Virus record (IMG/VR): IMGVR_UViG_3300046532_003672
Location: 1 to 22,681 of that record
Length of the DNA stretch: 22,681 nt
Source of the DNA: a virus
Direction: 5' to 3' (one strand)
Part shown: one piece after another, positions 2,034 through 10,614 of the stretch
Numbering within the stretch: position 1 is the stretch's first letter
Layout of the letters: each line of letters begins with the position of its first letter
Notes under the pieces: generated by a model
Seen by the model: the letters and a program-made list of their open reading frames with translations, nothing else
Told to the model about the DNA's origin: nothing
The model's database searches: none
Made by a program: the position numbers and the translations under genes

Positions 2034-2260
2034 TGAAATTGACACATATTATCGAACAACCAACACCACCAGAACCACCGCCAATTAACATGCAGTCCCT
2101 TGTTATAAAAGTTGACGAAGTTGTCGGTCAAGTATTTCAAAATCCGCAAGCGGCTGATGAATTAAAAGAGGCATTTAATGCACTCGGTGGAGGTCGGCAA
2201 ATGACCCGCGAACAAAGTCAAGCATTGTTACAATATCTTACTATACTATCAACTAATTAA
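2033..2260 (+). CDS. Small hypothetical protein, 75 aa, possibly leaderless mRNA
   Basis: The start ATG at 2033 is chosen because upstream in-frame codons lie inside the late promoter and the opposite gene. The product begins MKLTHIIEQ, followed by a proline-rich stretch (PTPPEPPPI), then a helical region with IKVDEVVGQVF and a GGGRQMTREQSQALLQYL end. I do not recognise it. The late promoter box ends at 2027, so the transcript would begin at or next to the A of the ATG, leaving no room for a Shine-Dalgarno. The next in-frame ATG (2090) also lacks one. Its stop overlaps the gp41 stop by 8 bases in convergent orientation with no terminator between. Existence is supported by promoter placement and sensible composition. 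Confidence 0.55.
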   Translation: MKLTHIIEQPTPPEPPPINMQSLVIKVDEVVGQVFQNPQAADELKEAFNALGGGRQMTREQSQALLQYLTILSTN

Positions 2261-3617
2261 TTTTTTTAATCATTGCTTTTAATCTATCAGTTTGATCTAT
2301 TGGAACCTGATCTTTTGGTGTATCGTCTCTCATGCTAGATGACAGTTTTAATCTATCATACAAGTTTTCTTGCGGAGTTTCGTCCATATCTTCAGATAAA
2401 TCAGATATTCTTAATGTGTCTATATTAAATTCCAACTCAACTTTCTGTCCTACTCCTGCTGAACTTCTTGTTTTCATAAACTGTACTTGTGTTCGTCCAC
2501 GCTCTCGCATTATTCTACTAGAAAAAATAGCTATAACATTATCTGCTGTTTGTATTTTACTAATACCTCCTGCAATATGACTATGATCAAATTCAATTTC
2601 ATCTACTGCGCCTCTGTTTAATTGCGATGCTGTAGCAAACAAATAGTTACCTTCAATTGCAAAGTTTCTAAGTTCTTCACTGACAAATTTATCTTTAATA
2701 AACAAATCACTTGGTGGTACTTTACGTTGAGCCGGCATCATTAAATCCAAATAATCTATTAGTACACATTGAGGTTCTATGCCTGTTTGTGTCATATACT
2801 CTTTAATATATACTTTAATATGATTTACGGTGCATCCATTTGGTAGTTGCACAATTTGTAATTGTCCTTTTTTCTTTGCCGCCATTTTAACTTTTAACTC
2901 AACATCGTCTAAATTTTTAAATATTTCCCTAGTTGAATATCCAGTTATCATGCTATCAAGACGCATTGATGTAAGTCCTTCACTTAATTCTAAACTAACA
3001 TATAAAACATTAAATCCAGCTTCGACCCAATTAAGTGCTAAGTTTTGCAGAAACAGACTCTTTCCTGCTCCGCTTCCGCCTGCGAATATTGAAAGCTCTC
3101 CTCTGTTAAACCCACCATATAATTTGTCATCAATTGTTTTCCATCCTGTGCTTGCACTACCATTATGATCTCTTAACAGTTTTAATCTTGACATTGGATC
3201 GTCCCAATAGTCTGTTCCTAAGTTTTTTGTTAATCCTATTTCAACTGCTGTTTTAATAATGCCTTCAACTGCACCATACTCTTGTGTTTCGAGCAAATCA
3301 GCAGATTCAATAATTGCTTTTTCTAATGCTTTATGTTTACAGAATTGTTCGAACTCTCCTAAAAACCAATCAATTTCATGCTTAGTAATTGTTACTTTTT
3401 CAAATTTCTTATTTGATTTTGCGTTTAATATATCAACTGACGGGACTGCTGAATGTTCATCTGCATAGTCTTGTAAGAATGCAACACTCTCTCTAAGTGT
3501 TGCATCAAAAAAATCCGAATCGCAAATGTTTCTACATCTTGCATATAATTCTGGATCTGTAATTAGAAACTCTATAAACAGTTTCTGTAAATCGTATGTG
3601 TAATCTACCTCAGCCAT
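2253..3617 (-). CDS. 41: Replicative DNA helicase, DnaB/gp41 family
   Basis: A 454-aa RecA-fold hexameric helicase of the DnaB family, close to T4 gp41 in length (475 aa). Residues 1-130 form the helical N-terminal domain. Walker A is GGSGAGKS (180-187), followed by a catalytic-glutamate region SLE (208-210). Walker B is VLIDYLDL (285-292), and motif SQLNRGAVDE plus an arginine-rich region SSRIMRERGR follow. It would unwind the lagging-strand template 5' to 3' at the fork and bind the gp61 primase. The ATG lies within the last codons of the primase gene (13-base overlap) with only weak Shine-Dalgarno sequence, so translation is probably coupled. The C-terminus is polar and probably disordered (DMDETPQENLYDRLK), as in T4 gp41. 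Confidence 0.93.
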   Translation of the reverse strand: MAEVDYTYDLQKLFIEFLITDPELYARCRNICDSDFFDATLRESVAFLQDYADEHSAVPSVDILNAKSNKKFEKVTITKHEIDWFLGEFEQFCKHKALEKAIIESADLLETQEYGAVEGIIKTAVEIGLTKNLGTDYWDDPMSRLKLLRDHNGSASTGWKTIDDKLYGGFNRGELSIFAGGSGAGKSLFLQNLALNWVEAGFNVLYVSLELSEGLTSMRLDSMITGYSTREIFKNLDDVELKVKMAAKKKGQLQIVQLPNGCTVNHIKVYIKEYMTQTGIEPQCVLIDYLDLMMPAQRKVPPSDLFIKDKFVSEELRNFAIEGNYLFATASQLNRGAVDEIEFDHSHIAGGISKIQTADNVIAIFSSRIMRERGRTQVQFMKTRSSAGVGQKVELEFNIDTLRISDLSEDMDETPQENLYDRLKLSSSMRDDTPKDQVPIDQTDRLKAMIKKIN

Positions 3618-4597
3618 TTTTTCTGCTTTATTTTAATTTTAATCTTATTATATTCCTTTGCATACAAAATTGTAAGCAAAGCCTCAAGTCGTCCATAATA
3701 TGCTACGGCATCGCATATATCTTTAACTTCGTTGGGCCACTCAGGTAAACTAATGTGCCATTTATTTTCTATAGCCACATCCATTAAATTAGAGTCTTTA
3801 CCGTCTTTATCTGGCACAACTATTTTCTTTGTTGGTAAATGATTTAATAAATCTATCTGTCTACTATTGCAATGATTACCACAGACTGCAACACCATTTA
3901 CCATTAATGCATCAAACGGTCCTTCGCATACAATCGTATATTTAACATTAGTTTGTTTATCATAGTTAAATAAAAAACTTTGTGGTGACTTTGTAATATA
4001 TTTTGGTATGCTATTTGACTTAGGGCGTTTAGTTAATCTTGCAGTATATCCAACAATTTTATTATTATATTCAAATGGTAAAATAACACGTTCATCTAAA
4101 TTAAATGCTTTGGTGTCAGTATAATACCAATTTCCAGCATCCATTAAACTACGTTTTTCAAGATACTTTAATGCTTTAGTAAACGCATCAGTTATTGTAC
4201 ATTTAAGTAATGGTTTAGAATTAATCGGAAGTGCTTCTTCCTTCCATTGTCCTGGTATTGCTAATGAATCAAATGTAACACGTTCGCTTGTAGACTGTAT
4301 TTGCATTGAAGCAAGTACAAGTTTTTTAATATCGTTATCAGTTGCACCAAGGCTAGTTAATAATATTCTAAACTTAGATGTAATTTTTCTACCAGGTAAC
4401 CATGATGTTTTGAAACCACAATTAAAACAATGATAAACAACTGAATCGCTATTTGGAAAATTGAATCCTCCACGTTTCCGTGTATCGGGCCGTGATTGTC
4501 CATTATGAATGCACACCGGACAATTCAAGGTATGCCATCCACTAGGACTAACTTTTATGTTTATCGGAAGTAATGTTTTAACGTAATCTAGTATCAC
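3605..4597 (-). CDS. 61: DNA primase, gp61 family
   Basis: A 330-aa protein (T4 gp61 is 342 aa). The N-terminal zinc-binding domain shows C26-PV-C29 and C57-FN-C60. The TOPRIM core carries CEGPFDAL (224-231, catalytic Glu225) and the later VPDKDGKDS with D263/D265, the metal-binding acidic pair. A basic lysine-rich tail follows (KIKIKIKQKKW). It synthesises the RNA primers for Okazaki fragments and works with the gp41 helicase encoded directly downstream. The start codon is GTG at 4597, in a GTGA overlap with the upstream stop, so translation is coupled to the 258-aa gene. No independent promoter is visible within the preceding few hundred bases. Confidence 0.92.
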   Translation of the reverse strand: MILDYVKTLLPINIKVSPSGWHTLNCPVCIHNGQSRPDTRKRGGFNFPNSDSVVYHCFNCGFKTSWLPGRKITSKFRILLTSLGATDNDIKKLVLASMQIQSTSERVTFDSLAIPGQWKEEALPINSKPLLKCTITDAFTKALKYLEKRSLMDAGNWYYTDTKAFNLDERVILPFEYNNKIVGYTARLTKRPKSNSIPKYITKSPQSFLFNYDKQTNVKYTIVCEGPFDALMVNGVAVCGNHCNSRQIDLLNHLPTKKIVVPDKDGKDSNLMDVAIENKWHISLPEWPNEVKDICDAVAYYGRLEALLTILYAKEYNKIKIKIKQKKWLR

Positions 4598-5393: not shown

Positions 5394-5401
5394 TATTTAT
5401 G
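5394..5401 (-). promoter_or_regulatory. Late promoter CATAAATA for the 258-aa gene and primase/helicase
   Basis: The minus strand reads CATAAATA here, one mismatch from TATAAATA. The predicted start is about 5388, 18 bases before the GTG at 5370. The box overlaps the ATG of the plus-strand gene at 5399, so the two promoters face each other. Confidence 0.6.
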
Positions 5402-5767
5402 GAATATGAACAAATTTTAAAACGCTTTCCTTTTTTGAGTATAATCAAATCTAATGATAAAGAACACGTCGGTATCATTCAACAAAACGATACGGCATTT
5501 ATTATGTTTTATGATTACAGTTTAATTAAAGATAAAAAGTTAAAAGAAGAATTTATTTCATTAGGTGAAACTTGGTGGTGGGAATCAAACAGACGTATTC
5601 CCATTACATTGTTTCTTCATAAACAAATGAAAAAATTTTATCCTTACTTAACAGTTTTAACAGCAAAAAATGTAATAATCGAAAAGGGACACGAAATAAA
5701 TTTGTTCAACTTTTCCGGAAAAAAAACTAAGCGAAGAACAATCGAACTAGTACAAAAATCTAGTTAA
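5399..5767 (+). CDS. Hypothetical protein, 122 aa
   Basis: The start is ATG 5399, the first in frame after the late box at 5358-5365. There is no convincing Shine-Dalgarno. The product is basic, soluble-looking and mixed alpha/beta, with a conspicuous WWWESNRRIPITLFL segment at about 58-72 and a C-terminal GKKTKRR cluster that could bind nucleic acid. I cannot name a family. It is a solitary plus-strand gene; its stop overlaps the end of the dioxygenase gene by 8 bases, tail to tail. Being driven by a late box suggests late expression. Confidence 0.65.
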   Translation: MEYEQILKRFPFLSIIKSNDKEHVGIIQQNDTAFIMFYDYSLIKDKKLKEEFISLGETWWWESNRRIPITLFLHKQMKKFYPYLTVLTAKNVIIEKGHEINLFNFSGKKTKRRTIELVQKSS

Positions 5768-6464
5768 TTGGATCAATTTTATCTAGTTGATCACATACTG
5801 AGTTACTTACTGCATTTATTAACAAAAGTCTTCTGTTATTATCTGTAGTATTTGGCATTGTGCTATGTAATAATCGACCATCCCATAGAATTAAAGTTCC
5901 TGGTGGTGCGATATGTTGTTTGTTATTATCTAAAAAGAAGTCCATATATTTTTCGTGATCTGTATTTTTTCCTAACTCATTTAAATCATATGTTATCACA
6001 TGTGACCCTGGTACAAATGCTGTGCCGCCATTTTTTTCTGTAAGCTCATCAATAGTGATAGCTATTTGCATTCCAATTAAATCTGTTCTATCTTTGAATT
6101 CCCAAAATCTATAAGGTGTATCTACATGTGGTCTATATATAAGTTCTTTTTGTCTGTTGGAATGAGAACAATTTACAATAAAATCAGTTGCACGAAAAGT
6201 AAATGGTCCTAATAAGTCAGTACAAATTGGTGATAATTTTTCTTTGATTAAATTAAGAATATCACTATCATGTATTTGTGCAGTATAATAAAACAACCAC
6301 GGTAGCTTCCACGGATCGGCAAGAGTCCAGCCAGCACTTACTGCGCCTCTACAAGGTGGTAAACTATCACATAATTCTTTTAATTTAGTAATAGTAGTGC
6401 TATCTACAAAATTAGGTATAACTGTATATCCTTGTTTTTTTACTTCGTTTATTGCTTTTTCCAT
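5760..6464 (-). CDS. 2-oxoglutarate/Fe(II) dioxygenase, phytanoyl-CoA dioxygenase (PhyH)-like
   Basis: A 234-aa protein with the double-stranded beta-helix metal site: H113-V-D115 (RPHVDTPYR), then H200 in WDGRLLHSTMPN, then R211/R212 in NNRRLLLINAV as the likely 2OG carboxylate ligand. The stretch NGGTAFVPGSHV is characteristic of the PhyH family. Such enzymes hydroxylate small molecules, lipids, bases or proteins using O2 and 2-oxoglutarate. They are frequent in marine T4-like phage genomes, with physiological substrates mostly unknown. The ATG at 6464 overlaps the previous gene's TAA (TAATG), so it is the last gene of the gp62-like/zinc-finger/mini-polymerase unit. The catalytic residues look intact. 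Confidence 0.88.
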   Translation of the reverse strand: MEKAINEVKKQGYTVIPNFVDSTTITKLKELCDSLPPCRGAVSAGWTLADPWKLPWLFYYTAQIHDSDILNLIKEKLSPICTDLLGPFTFRATDFIVNCSHSNRQKELIYRPHVDTPYRFWEFKDRTDLIGMQIAITIDELTEKNGGTAFVPGSHVITYDLNELGKNTDHEKYMDFFLDNNKQHIAPPGTLILWDGRLLHSTMPNTTDNNRRLLLINAVSNSVCDQLDKIDPIN

Positions 6465-7012
6465 TATAAGCTATTTAATTGCATTACAATTAGTATTGCA
6501 TAACTTATAGCATGAGATTTTTTAAAATAATATGTACCATCAGTTGGTTTAACCCACACTACTTCTAATATTTTGTTCCAATTATGATTTGACAAGTGTC
6601 GCTTTGCAGGTCTAATTATTGCTAGTACTGCCGCTAATTGTTCTACACTTCTTGGTCGTAACTTTTGAAGTATATCCAAATGATCATGTACATGAAATAA
6701 CTTACTAACTATTGTTGGATCAAGCAATAAATCCCAATTAGGATCTTCGAATATTAATTCATCTAACTTGTTTGAATCTATATTTTTGTATGCACTATTA
6801 TTAATTACATCTAGTTTAAAAAATCCAAGATCATCGGCTTGTTTATAATCAATAATACAAGTACCATTTAAATAATCAGCTGGTACATTATGAAAATAAA
6901 CGCCAGTTTTATGTTTCTTATTATCTGTTAGCTTTGCCGGAACATGCTTAAACAACTCTAATACTTTATCCCTGTCTGCTACATCTATATCAACATCAGT
7001 ATTAAACGCCAT
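6464..7012 (-). CDS. Miniature DNA polymerase III alpha-like protein (palm/fingers remnant)
   Basis: A 182-aa protein carrying, in the right order, several signature stretches of the bacterial DnaE/PolC replicative polymerase core. TDVDIDV (5-11) resembles the palm motif PDxDIDF. DLGFFKLDVINN (61-72) resembles GLVKFDFLGL, including the third palm Asp (D68). LFHVHDHLDIL (105-115) resembles LFQxES. RPRSVEQLAAVLAIIRP (119-135) resembles the fingers motif with ALxRPG. FKKSHAISYA (163-172) resembles FNKSHAxAYA. DnaE is about 1100 aa, so this is a severe compression to palm plus fingers with no PHP, beta-binding or OB domain. The putative catalytic Asp residues are present, but activity cannot be assumed. 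It overlaps the zinc-finger gene by 11 bases and is coupled to the dioxygenase (TAATG). The motif match is from memory and seems good; a role at the phage fork is inference. Confidence 0.65.
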   Translation of the reverse strand: MAFNTDVDIDVADRDKVLELFKHVPAKLTDNKKHKTGVYFHNVPADYLNGTCIIDYKQADDLGFFKLDVINNSAYKNIDSNKLDELIFEDPNWDLLLDPTIVSKLFHVHDHLDILQKLRPRSVEQLAAVLAIIRPAKRHLSNHNWNKILEVVWVKPTDGTYYFKKSHAISYAILIVMQLNSL

Positions 7013-7688
7013 TAAACTTCATTTCTTTTAGAACACTATTTGCCCAATTAATATCTTCTTGGTGTTTGCTAATTAAACGACTCCATTTGTTCAAGTCATC
7101 ACCAAGCCATTCATCTAAATGTTTAAGTTCACTATCTTCCATCTTAGATAGTAATTGCTTTCCAATATCAGTGCCAACTGCTATCCATAAACTTAATTTA
7201 CCATCACGTATAAGTTTTAATATTGTTGGCGAATTAGCCTTAATATAAAAATCCTGTATTGGTTTATTTTGTTCGTCTGCCCATTCTTGTATACATAATA
7301 CAAATTTTTCTAATGCTCGTTGACACGATTCTTTGAGTCCGTGTTGTTTAATAAATTTACCATATGTTGCTTCCTTTCGCCAATGATCAACTTTTACATT
7401 ATTGTCACATAACCATTCCATAAAGTCTTGATAACCTTTAATACGTGCTTCCAACACATACCTAGCGAACTTAATAAACTCCATATAATGTCGCGATTCT
7501 AAAAACTTTGTAATAGTAGCCTGCTTATATGTATTCCTTGCAAGAAACTTATTATAACACCATATGGCTACAATCATATACTTCTCATCCTTATCACCAT
7601 GGTATAATTTTTTTGGACAAGAATGCGATGCTAATGTTGTTTCTTTAACAAACGATCTATTACAAAAGATACATTTAAATTTTGCCAT
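7002..7688 (-). CDS. Zinc-finger protein of unknown function, 228 aa
   Basis: The N-terminus has a single CCHC-type finger: C6-IF-C9, twelve residues, H22-S-C24 (FKCIFCNRSFVKETTLASHSC). The rest is a helical, Trp- and Lys-rich region (YMEFIKFARYVLEARIKGYQ; FMEWLCDNNVKVDHWRKE; LDEWLGDDLNKWSRLI) with no motif I can name. A nucleic-acid or protein-docking role is likely from the finger. Its start overlaps the end of the gp62-like gene by 14 bases and its end overlaps the start of the mini-polymerase-III gene by 11 bases, so the three are translated as a tightly coupled set and may act together at the replisome. Confidence 0.75.
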   Translation of the reverse strand: MAKFKCIFCNRSFVKETTLASHSCPKKLYHGDKDEKYMIVAIWCYNKFLARNTYKQATITKFLESRHYMEFIKFARYVLEARIKGYQDFMEWLCDNNVKVDHWRKEATYGKFIKQHGLKESCQRALEKFVLCIQEWADEQNKPIQDFYIKANSPTILKLIRDGKLSLWIAVGTDIGKQLLSKMEDSELKHLDEWLGDDLNKWSRLISKHQEDINWANSVLKEMKFNGV

Positions 7689-8103
7689 CTATTTGGTCTA
7701 TCATATTTTGAACTGCTTTTTTATCACTTAACAATATATCTATTTCATCTTGGTTTAAACTTGGATATAATAAACTGAATCTCTCTATCAGTTTTTCTTT
7801 TTTAGTTTTTTTACTAACACCTATCCAAGGATGATACTGATTTTTTCCAATACCAATTATCGACGCTAACATCCAACATAACTCTTTATGTTTATATAAA
7901 ACAGAAAAATCTTTATTCAAAAATTCATTTGTCAACTCTAAATAATGCTCCTGCAATTGCTTACTACCCTTAATAGAACTTGTCCAACGCATTACCATGA
8001 ACGGACTAAACTCTTTCTTTTGTTCATCAGATAGCTGGCTGTAGAATTCTTTATTACGCCTATCTACTGCACCTAGCATAGACTTGAGATCAATCTTTTT
8101 CAT
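7675..8103 (-). CDS. Possible gp62-like clamp-loader small subunit, 142 aa
   Basis: The ATG at 8103-8101 (MKKIDLKSML) is chosen over a GTG at 8121, which would precede the predicted transcript start. I see two short stretches that line up with the T4 gp62 pattern: FSPFMVMRWTSS with gp62's FMV...S block, and ELCWMLASIIGIGKNQYHPW with its YLMAAVPRGKRYGKW block. That would make it the non-catalytic subunit that joins gp44 in loading the gp45 clamp. T4 gp62 is longer (187 aa). The match is from memory and weak; an unrelated conserved helical protein is the alternative. No Shine-Dalgarno is visible, and a sigma70-like promoter at 8113-8141 would leave a leader of only a few bases. It leads the operon with the zinc-finger, mini-polymerase and dioxygenase genes. 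Confidence 0.5.
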   Translation of the reverse strand: MKKIDLKSMLGAVDRRNKEFYSQLSDEQKKEFSPFMVMRWTSSIKGSKQLQEHYLELTNEFLNKDFSVLYKHKELCWMLASIIGIGKNQYHPWIGVSKKTKKEKLIERFSLLYPSLNQDEIDILLSDKKAVQNMIDQIDGKI

Positions 8104-9125: not shown

Positions 9126-10577
9126 TTACCATCTTACCTTTTCTATTGTGTATGGGTATCGAGCTTCATTATAAAATTTCTTACGTTCTGTAAGATGCCT
9201 TTTAGAAAACTTAGCAGAAGATGTTATATCCCAAACTTGGACAAAATCTTTATCTTTTGCTTTTCTAATGCCTCTTCCGATTGACTGTATGACACGGACA
9301 AAACTTTTGCCTGGCTCGATAAGGACTAAATTAAAAATCCTAGGCATATCGATGCCAACAGATGCAACACCGTAAGTAGCAATAATTACTTTGTTGTCAG
9401 CAGTTTGTACTTCGTCGTATTGTTCTCGTCGGTCTGCTGACTTGACCGCACCTGATATAAAAACACTTTCATCTCCGAGTTTTTCCTGCAACATCTTTCC
9501 TGCTTTAATACGACTAACAAGCACTAAAGTATTGCCTCCTTTAACAATATCTTTTAATAATTCTACAATATATTCTATGCGAGTTTCATTTGTAGTAAGA
9601 TATGATAATTCACTAGAATAGGTATTGTACTGTACTGTATCTTGTAATTGCACGACATTTACTTTACAGTTTGCAAGTACTCCTTGCTCTTGTAAATCAG
9701 ACGCTTTTAAACGATTTACAACACTACCTAAACTAACAACTAATGATACATATGCCCAATCTTCTTTTGGTATTGTACCTGTTAGTCCCCAACGAATAGG
9801 TATTTTTGCAAATGGTCCTGTAAGTAATCGTTTAAGTACATCTGCTTTTGCCATGTGTACTTCATCAACAATAATTGCACTAATACCATCTGTTAAATCG
9901 TGTAATCCTAAATCGCTTTCGCCGTCTTTAAAACGTTTATCTAATACATTGAGACTCTGCCAGGTGCATATCGTATGGGTTTTACCAATTTCCTTTCTAT
10001 CCCCAAAATATACCCCGGCATCGAGTCCTAAATTAATATAATCTTTTTCTGTTTGGGTAACCAAATCCTTATTTGGTACAATAATTAATGTACCTCCATA
10101 TTGTTCTACGCATTGACTTAGCGTGGCCGTAACAAGTGTTTTACCTGCACCCGTAGCAATTTCTTGTAAACTTTGTGGTTGTGATAAGAATTGATTTATA
10201 ATACTAACTTGGTAATCTCTTAATATAATTGGTTCACCTACATTTTGATGACCTTTCGGCCATTTTTTATTCTTATGTGTATCCTGTGTAACAGTTATAA
10301 AATTTAATTCTTGTCCTTCGCGAGCATCTTCGATGTTAATATGATAACCTTCATTAACAAGTTCAGGTATAATATCTTCGAGGAGATTAAGAAAGGTCAC
10401 ACCACCAGGACTAAAATAACTAACACAACCATCCCAGCGACCTAATTTATAGGCGGGAACATGAAAAGCATAAGGCATAAAATACTTAAACTTCTTTTCA
10501 AGTTTACGCCTTGTAACTAAATCTAAATTATGTACTTTTACATTTACTTCATCTTTAATTTCAATCAAACAGTCCAT
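9126..10577 (-). CDS. uvsW: UvsW DNA/RNA helicase (superfamily 2)
   Basis: The ATG at 10577 is chosen; an upstream in-frame TTG (10589) falls in the terminator U-tract region and has no better ribosome binding site. The 483-aa product (T4 UvsW about 500 aa) has an N-terminal substrate-recognition domain (1-115), Walker A ATGAGKT (141-147), the DEVH box (238-241), motif III-like GLTGT (264-268) and motif VI QSIGRGIRK (430-438). In T4, UvsW unwinds R-loops and branched DNA, drives fork regression and branch migration, and shuts off origin-dependent replication late. It lies right after the AAA+ gene terminator with no obvious promoter of its own, so expression would depend on read-through or an unseen promoter. 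The 166-aa gene follows after 1 base. Confidence 0.92.
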   Translation of the reverse strand: MDCLIEIKDEVNVKVHNLDLVTRRKLEKKFKYFMPYAFHVPAYKLGRWDGCVSYFSPGGVTFLNLLEDIIPELVNEGYHINIEDAREGQELNFITVTQDTHKNKKWPKGHQNVGEPIILRDYQVSIINQFLSQPQSLQEIATGAGKTLVTATLSQCVEQYGGTLIIVPNKDLVTQTEKDYINLGLDAGVYFGDRKEIGKTHTICTWQSLNVLDKRFKDGESDLGLHDLTDGISAIIVDEVHMAKADVLKRLLTGPFAKIPIRWGLTGTIPKEDWAYVSLVVSLGSVVNRLKASDLQEQGVLANCKVNVVQLQDTVQYNTYSSELSYLTTNETRIEYIVELLKDIVKGGNTLVLVSRIKAGKMLQEKLGDESVFISGAVKSADRREQYDEVQTADNKVIIATYGVASVGIDMPRIFNLVLIEPGKSFVRVIQSIGRGIRKAKDKDFVQVWDITSSAKFSKRHLTERKKFYNEARYPYTIEKVRW

Positions 10578-10587
10578 ATGTTTTGCC

Positions 10588-10614
10588 AAAAAAAAAGCCC
10601 CGAAGGGCTTTTTT
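10588..10614 (-). terminator. Intrinsic terminator/attenuator with UUCG loop between the AAA+ gene and uvsW
   Basis: On the minus strand GCCC (10608-10605), loop TTCG (10604-10601), GGGC (10600-10597) is followed by nine Ts (10596-10588) and preceded by six As that can extend the stem. The C(UUCG)G tetraloop is exceptionally stable. It starts one base after the AAA+ stop. On the plus strand the same element also has a six-T tail, but no plus-strand gene ends here. This is the best intrinsic terminator in the window. Confidence 0.85.

Follow-up and report, generated by a model that had tools for sequence, protein, structure and literature searches.

The window analysed here, the whole 22,681-nucleotide (22.7 kb) stretch of IMG/VR virus record IMGVR_UViG_3300046532_003672, raises the question of what a minus-strand open reading frame (ORF) of only 182 amino acids (aa) is doing with the sequence motifs of the bacterial replicative polymerases DnaE and PolC. 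The original prediction, made from the letters alone, had read the ORF as the whole polymerase core compressed into 182 residues. The motifs that it named are present in their native order, and the product was confirmed as a true homologue of the core of the DNA polymerase III (Pol III) alpha subunit, the C family of polymerases. The compression did not stand, however: the ORF encodes the C-terminal half of the core only (termed the C-half), and the palm half with the GRGS loop is the product of a separate gene (termed the N-half). We consider it probable that the C-half forms the C-terminal subunit of a minimal, thumb-less C-family DNA polymerase with two subunits, which works beside the family B polymerase gp43.

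A split minimal Pol III alpha has already been described in silico in 2021. The passages cited from Iyer et al. 2021 (PMC7824862) describe, in jumbo phages of group 2.2, a phage-specific minimal Pol III alpha made of two proteins whose genes lie far apart, an N-terminal nucleoside triphosphate (NTP)-binding part and a C-terminal Mg- and template-binding part, which likely reconstitute the enzyme and may cooperate with the family B polymerase in the synthesis of one strand or in repair. The same passages say that split phages carry none of the other Pol III domains, and suggest that the split form is ancestral. Single pieces were also noticed in the parts consulted of the CBB genome paper (a truncated 172-aa Pol III alpha; PMC5259590) and of an earlier report on Atu_ph07 (gp316, a Pol III alpha piece; PMC6102473), while the DNA polymerase III of phage Callisto (ORF111) is so named by annotation, the tagged replisome genes in the text cited being others (PMC11079468). 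No experiment on the split pair was found in the full-text literature that could be searched, a scope outside which most subscription journals and preprints lie. The window shares with the described form the stand-alone C-half, the Mg-binding residues and the truncated fingers (PMC7824862, passages cited); its closest matches are environmental contigs, and it is a new marine member of this split family. New here are the join point, the active-site register, the steric gate, the thumb and finger deletions and the co-occurrence counts, as well as the neighbouring gp44 and putative gp62 genes, a carrier of 141.6 kb that is not a jumbo phage, and contigs with an intact C-family polymerase of ~570 aa.

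Homology was examined at the levels of sequence family and predicted fold. The C-half matched PHROG_11778, labelled "DNA polymerase", over residues 4-182 (E 6e-62), and all nine of its matches in a profile search of the PDB were Pol III alpha, but at E 0.33-1.5 only. By tblastn (E ≤ 1e-3), the C-half was found in 63 of 50,697 phage records, every match covering at least 80% of the query. The carriers are RaK2, 121Q, PBECO4, GAP32, PA5oct/Paride, Atu_ph07, Phosso, SCTP-2, XacN1, Vibrio 2.275.O and CM1, plus relatives, and their products are annotated as "hypothetical protein" in many cases and as "DNA polymerase" in others. Scans of IMG/VR confirmed at least 595 C-half and at least 597 N-half relatives, some of which may be intact polymerases, and 80 of each were kept for analysis. 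The ratio of nonsynonymous to synonymous substitution rates (dN/dS) between the C-half of the window and three close relatives was 0.16-0.20, indicating purifying selection. An AlphaFold model of the C-half, built with 58 relatives, had a predicted local distance difference test (pLDDT) score of 90.2, and 13 Pol III/PolC-type chains ranked first for it in Foldseek (best E 1.2e-3). VIA-align matched the model to Taq DnaE 458-832 over 180 of its 182 residues (Z 9.9), to E. coli DnaE 397-775 over 179 (Z 9.3), to M. tuberculosis DnaE 416-802 over 180 (Z 9.8) and to PolC 968-1290 over 178 (Z 9.6). The 16 top entries, some of them titled just "DNA polymerase" but with PolC-type numbering, were all C-family-type (Z 6.5-9.9) and aligned 177-181 residues in 15 cases and 170 in the other (2hqa), and the next entry was an unrelated glyoxalase (Z 3.7). 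The claimed homology to C-family palm and fingers was therefore upheld by both PHROG_11778 and the structure ranking, with no sign of an unrelated fold, and the model points to the C-half being the palm/fingers of the C family.

The C-half begins at the DxDxD strand and spans E. coli DnaE 397-775 minus ~80 thumb-region and ~90 fingers residues; within this coverage it does not include the PHP domain, the thumb, the full fingers or HhH. As the model starts at E. coli 397, the first palm half with the GRGS loop is absent from it, and the PGRGS triphosphate-binding motif, absent from the chain, is borne by the separate N-half protein. Numbering of E. coli DnaE was taken from its dnaE gene (D401-x-D403-x-D405, K553-x-D555, GRGS 361-364, H760) and the register from the starts of the structure alignments (model residue 1 = Taq 458 = PolC 968), so that D6, D8, D10, K66, D68 and H167 of the C-half correspond to D401, D403, D405, K553, D555 and H760. 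Catalytic Asp residues are thus retained, as had been claimed, although not in the claimed register (D8/D10/D68); by E. coli numbering the predicted catalytic trio is D6/D8/D68. In the text consulted, D401, D403 and D555 are described as invariant throughout the C family, and D405 as conserved in DnaE but not in PolC, which has Asn there (PMC3919608); D10 of the C-half is conserved as in DnaE. DnaE H760 is a proposed steric gate, according to the source as cited (PMC8485763).

D6, D8, D10, H34, G37, K66 and D68 were invariant in 113 of 113 distinct C-half sequences, and D6, D8, D10, K66 and D68 lie outside the patterns used to fetch those sequences, while the exact search peptide MAFNTDVD spans D6 and D8; the tblastn search that gave 63 records was pattern-free. 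H167, R134, P135 and K137 were kept in 112 of 112 ungapped rows and in a 37-row set (37/37) that includes 10 phage records obtained by tblastn with the window protein, though this conservation is partly by selection because the fetch patterns include FKK[SA]H and IRP[AG]K. In the alignment, 23 residues lie between D10 and H34 versus 105 in E. coli DnaE (D405-H511), the region within which the thumb helix-loop-helix lies (Taq 513-552) according to the passages cited (PMC3919608), and 29 lie between P135 and K165 versus 117 (P640-K758). The C-half thus resembles DnaE/PolC in its palm nucleotidyltransferase (NT) fold and in having the equivalents of D401/D403/D405/D555, K553 and H760, whereas, unlike them, the split enzyme is without PHP, thumb region, most of the fingers, HhH, clamp motif, OB and tau-binding parts, and its palm is divided between two genes. 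Two candidates for missing parts were rejected. A QLNLL-like C-terminal end, considered as a clamp motif, lines up with a helix of DnaE, and the Q in it varies between sequences. To look for a third gene that would supply the fingers, 12 genomes were searched with the Pfam Pol III finger domain (PF17657, E ≤ 1); seven gave the C-half itself and five nothing, and in one of the seven, G017, an intact polymerase of ~560 aa was matched as well.

The complement was found with PF07733. A second small ORF, matching profile positions ~18-98 only, was present in all six records of at least 287 kb that were searched and in none of six shorter contigs. Its product is 169-184 aa long from likely starts in the six large records, and the window-like N-halves in contigs G027 and G037 have shorter open frames (148 and 146). 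The six N-halves end in the style of ...GVGRGSSVASYVLFLIGIHKVDSIKYxLDxxEFLK-stop, corresponding to DnaE up to FERFLN. Two N-halves matched PHROG_11127, labelled DNA polymerase, at E 1e-48 and 3e-85; the matches to PHROG_11127 and PHROG_11778 are near full length, and the polymerase labels of both families were transferred by homology. Nine of ten PDB profile matches of the N-half were Pol III alpha (best E 0.005). In the model of one N-half (locus L143; pLDDT 90.3), the aligned part was residues 78-179, which correspond to 279-395 of E. coli, 303-457 of Taq, 306-415 of M. tuberculosis and 825-967 of PolC, and the 16 top entries for this model were all C-family-type (Z 7.7-12.6; next entry, Z 2.8). 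Comparison of the alignment ends with those of the C-half model shows that the halves abut within 1-2 residues in each structure. Among the 80 N-half loci, L095 has no start and L160 is in the wrong frame; GRGS was present in 79 of 79 N-half rows, partly by selection, as the fetch patterns include GRGS and left out rows without it (L160 alone). A split intein was rejected as the source of the join, since N-halves stop after the FERFLN counterpart, C-halves begin just before DxDxD, and neither carries intein-sized extra sequence. Fused halves were also looked for, and there was none in 80 C-half ORFs (longest frame, 238) or 79 N-half ORFs (longest, 248); two N-like matches in frames of ~570 aa are intact single-chain polymerases, neither fusions nor counted as N-halves.

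The two halves occur together. The N-half of RaK2 used as a query retrieved 63 records at E ≤ 0.01, and 59 of the 60 C-half records listed (of 63) were also among the 60 N-half records listed (likewise of 63). The exception, PP728206 (109.5 kb, marked UNVERIFIED), belongs to the genus of RaK2 (345.8 kb) and is apparently incomplete; a profile search of it gave no N-half, and it was the only miss among eight phage records searched in this way. The 14 longest contigs with one of the 80 N-half loci include nine that carry a C-half, among them all six of at least 250 kb. The N-half lies ~33-44 kb downstream of the C-half on the same strand in RaK2 (33 kb), Paride and G027, a 49-kb contig with a C-half 82% identical to that of the window and an N-half 44 kb downstream. 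An N-half is also present in the FRAM18 metagenome-assembled genome (MAG), the C-half of which is 84% identical to that of the window, and in three of three other MAG assemblies searched. Slickus01, the circular, non-jumbo carrier of 141.6 kb, has both halves ~11 kb apart. These computations establish the homology, complementarity, conservation and co-occurrence of the two halves.

From this we infer association of the halves, catalysis and a role, as follows. The N-half and C-half would associate without covalent joining, the N-half supplying the GRGS loop for the triphosphate, and the C-half supplying the two Mg ions (D6, D8, D68), K66 and an H167 gate that would select deoxynucleotides. The pair would add deoxynucleoside triphosphates (dNTPs) to short primer ends alongside gp43. 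As it has no thumb, the pair should be distributive or weakly processive, and gap filling, Okazaki-end extension or recombination-primer extension would be its likeliest job; help from the phage clamp and clamp loader is a guess from the gene neighbours. Coexistence with a T4-type gp43, as originally predicted, was found in the large relatives: the family B polymerase domain PF00136 was detected in six of six relatives' records of at least 287 kb (and in none of six shorter contigs), and PF03104 in 12 of 12 genomes of at least 259 kb.

Several results weigh against this two-subunit polymerase. On the side of homology, phmmer gave no match of the C-half in the PDB, hhalign against E. coli DnaE alone gave a probability of 8%, Foldseek gave no match at E ≤ 0.001, and the first ~77 residues of the N-half found no structure match. 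In Pfam, the match to the Pol III finger domain (PF17657) reached E 0.057, under the cut-off. On the side of co-occurrence, the 22.7-kb record itself contains no N-half, five of the 14 longest N-half contigs are without a C-half (the longest of them, 203 kb), and, among contigs from 141 C-half loci, a true N-half was found in one of 10 contigs of 61-343 kb (the longest without, 221 kb) and in two of 12 contigs of 32-66 kb; such single-half contigs are compatible with, though no proof of, genes that lie tens of kb apart on fragments. On the side of function, the DnaE thumb region, ILYQEQV and GADMLRRAMGKK have no counterpart in the C-half, so that templated polymerisation is not assured. In DnaE, GADMLRRAMGKK contacts the triphosphate. 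DnaQ, considered as an obligate partner, was rejected, its exonuclease being over the cut-off in four of 12 genomes only, and no gp45 or gp62 homologue is reported in the portions consulted of the CBB genome paper (PMC5259590).

A further proposal goes beyond the minimal polymerase, and we put it forward tentatively, as possible rather than likely. The pair would be the smallest natural templated C-family polymerase, sharing one replisome with the family B enzyme, and a T4-type clamp loader would hand over primer ends between the B-family leading enzyme and the bacterial-type accessory enzyme. This hand-over is suggested by the position of the N-half gene with gp44 and of the C-half gene with a gp62-like subunit.

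The missing parts can also be read differently, as those of an active nucleotidyltransferase that is not templated and serves in untemplated 3′-end extension, in priming or in nucleotidylation of a protein or small molecule. The two shortened stretches (23 residues for 105 at D10-H34, 29 for 117 at P135-K165) K137 of the RPxK motif, conserved in the family, and the intact active-site residues speak for such an activity. We nevertheless regard it as rather unlikely, as the steric-gate His and the O-helix end, which select dNTPs, are retained, the genes lie beside those for helicase, primase and clamp loader, and a reduced thumb is also found in PolC and Thermotogae DnaE3, according to the text consulted (PMC3919608). 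The idea that the C-half is a catalytically dead decoy or regulator, binding the clamp, the template or the host polymerase, had been raised originally; it takes account of the truncation, of the lack of a known activity and of the coexistence with gp43 in large relatives. It is now disfavoured, and we judge it improbable, because a non-catalytic protein gives no reason for D6/D8/D68 and K66, the metal-binding residues and the lysine, to be kept in 113 of 113 distinct sequences including those of distant phages, or for a GRGS-bearing complement to be kept in 59 of 60 listed records. Still less credible is a 182-aa C-half acting alone as a complete miniature polymerase: it does hold all three Asp residues and the steric gate, but the GRGS strand and first palm half are encoded separately in every large genome that was examined, as well as in 59 of the 60 records listed. 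Chance motif resemblance or a decayed gene fragment, which the weak single-sequence Pfam and PDB matches might suggest, is refuted by the model fold, the at least 595 relatives, the dN/dS of 0.16-0.20 and the conserved gene order.

If the two-subunit polymerase is active, its active site would be assembled from the products of two genes, in an enzyme stripped of its thumb. It would provide a direct test of the minimal needs of a C-family polymerase, and bacterial-type and T4-type replicases would share one fork. The residue map, the join point and the matched pairs make the 2021 prediction directly testable.

The origin of the split was addressed with a 24-row tree, in which a branch of length 1.8 (support 1.0) separated 15 split pairs from the intact enzymes, both the bacterial ones and the long and short ones of phages; the tree was made with FastTree only from 275 columns, the branch is very long, and the result speaks to one split clade, with the origin outside its reach. 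As there is a single split side, the polymerase split appears to have arisen once. Unlike the phages described in the passages cited from Iyer et al. (PMC7824862), three C-half-bearing contigs (G017, G023 and G031; Table 1) also encode a PHP-less C-family polymerase of ~560-575 aa in a single chain, with intact palm and fingers. These intact phage polymerases share the C-family core with the split pair but consist of one chain and retain the fingers, and RRAFAKK is present in all three contigs' enzymes. A relative with 38.6% identity, likewise PHP-less and of ~570 aa, was found in the 484-kb uncultured phage LR756508.

Both halves lie among replication genes, the C-half with uvsW, gp61 and gp41 and the N-half with gp44; conservation of the three former genes near the C-half agrees with the replication neighbourhood noted from the window. 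The conserved order is uvsW, PHROG_11279, PHROG_11758, zinc-finger gene, C-half, convergent gene, structural protein (matched by sequence in 11 of the 18 loci), gp61 and gp41, interrupted by extra genes in several phages and arranged differently in XacN1. The zinc-finger gene of the window runs 11 bases into the start of the C-half, and the identification of its product as a zinc-finger protein was supported by a C2HC-type pattern that inspection by eye showed at the N terminus of the homologues (L069 left aside; the H-C spacing is longer in Slickus01). The next protein, taken originally for a gp62-like one, belongs to PHROG_11758, which was matched by 13 of 13 members scanned, that of the window included. 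The gp62 reading drew weak support: PHROG_225 "clamp loader" (160 positions) was matched by one of the 13 (Slickus01, E 3e-4), in which the gene is directly downstream of gp44, and no clamp loader was among 10 PDB profile matches at E ≤ 10. A gp62-like clamp-loader subunit is thus a plausible but unproven assignment. The N-half is a few genes upstream of the clamp loader gene gp44, annotated so in RaK2, Paride and SCTP-2 and as AAA-ATPase in Phosso; a head-morphogenesis protein (RaK2) or GroES (Phosso) is encoded between them, and the corresponding loci are L087, L088, L089 and L090. Of the 18 loci compared, one (L271) has the PhyH-type gene that follows the C-half in the window, and the near-identical L001 and L002 have it too. 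Neither the convergent gene nor the gp61-like primase gave a Pfam match at E ≤ 0.01.

Table 1. Coordinates of the C-half, its motifs, the neighbouring genes and the intact polymerases of other contigs (positions are those of the window unless a locus is named).
Feature	Position	Strand	Remarks
C-half of split minimal C-family (Pol III alpha-like) polymerase	6464..7012	minus	182 aa, PHROG_11778
TDVDIDV metal-binding strand, T5-V11	6980..7000	minus	D6, D8, D10 kept in 113/113
HKTG, H34-G37	6902..6913	minus	counterpart of HAGG in DnaE KHAGGVV; H34, G37 in 113/113
K66-D68	6809..6817	minus	third catalytic Asp = D68; 113/113
RPAKRHL, R134-L140	6593..6613	minus	replaces DnaE RPGP; K137 conserved in split C-half family
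FKKSH, F163-H167	6512..6526	minus	H167 = proposed steric-gate His
gp41-like DnaB helicase	2253..3617	minus	PF03796, E 1.5e-17
gp61-like primase	3605..4597	minus	homologue of annotated RaK2 primase, 32% identity, E 1e-43
Convergent gene downstream of C-half	5399..5767	plus	tblastn match in 18/18 loci, weak in L070
PhyH-type 2-oxoglutarate-Fe(II) dioxygenase, inserted after C-half	5760..6464	minus	PF05721, E 1.7e-16
C2HC-type zinc-finger protein	7002..7688	minus	PHROG_11058; tblastn match in 16/18 loci
PHROG_11758 protein, possible gp62-like clamp-loader small subunit	7675..8103	minus	142 aa
UvsW helicase	9126..10589	minus	
Intact PHP-less polymerase, G023	L261:1357-3081		
Intact PHP-less polymerase, G017	L265:730-2403	minus	
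Intact PHP-less polymerase, G031	L270	minus	567-aa open frame

Ten phage-type C-half loci (L271-L280) are filed under bacterial or archaeal MAGs (Methylophilaceae, Pelagibacter, Pacearchaeota and others), which most likely reflects the co-binning of phages, not genes of a host. One of them, the FRAM18 MAG contig (L271), is ~100% identical to the window across ~6.3 kb except for two patches, one of ~400 bases within 6300-6800, which runs from the 3′ half of the C-half gene into the beginning of the PhyH gene and has 58-97% identity in blocks of 100 bases, and the other near 9.8-10 kb. The divergent patches reflect either allele swapping or chimeric assembly.

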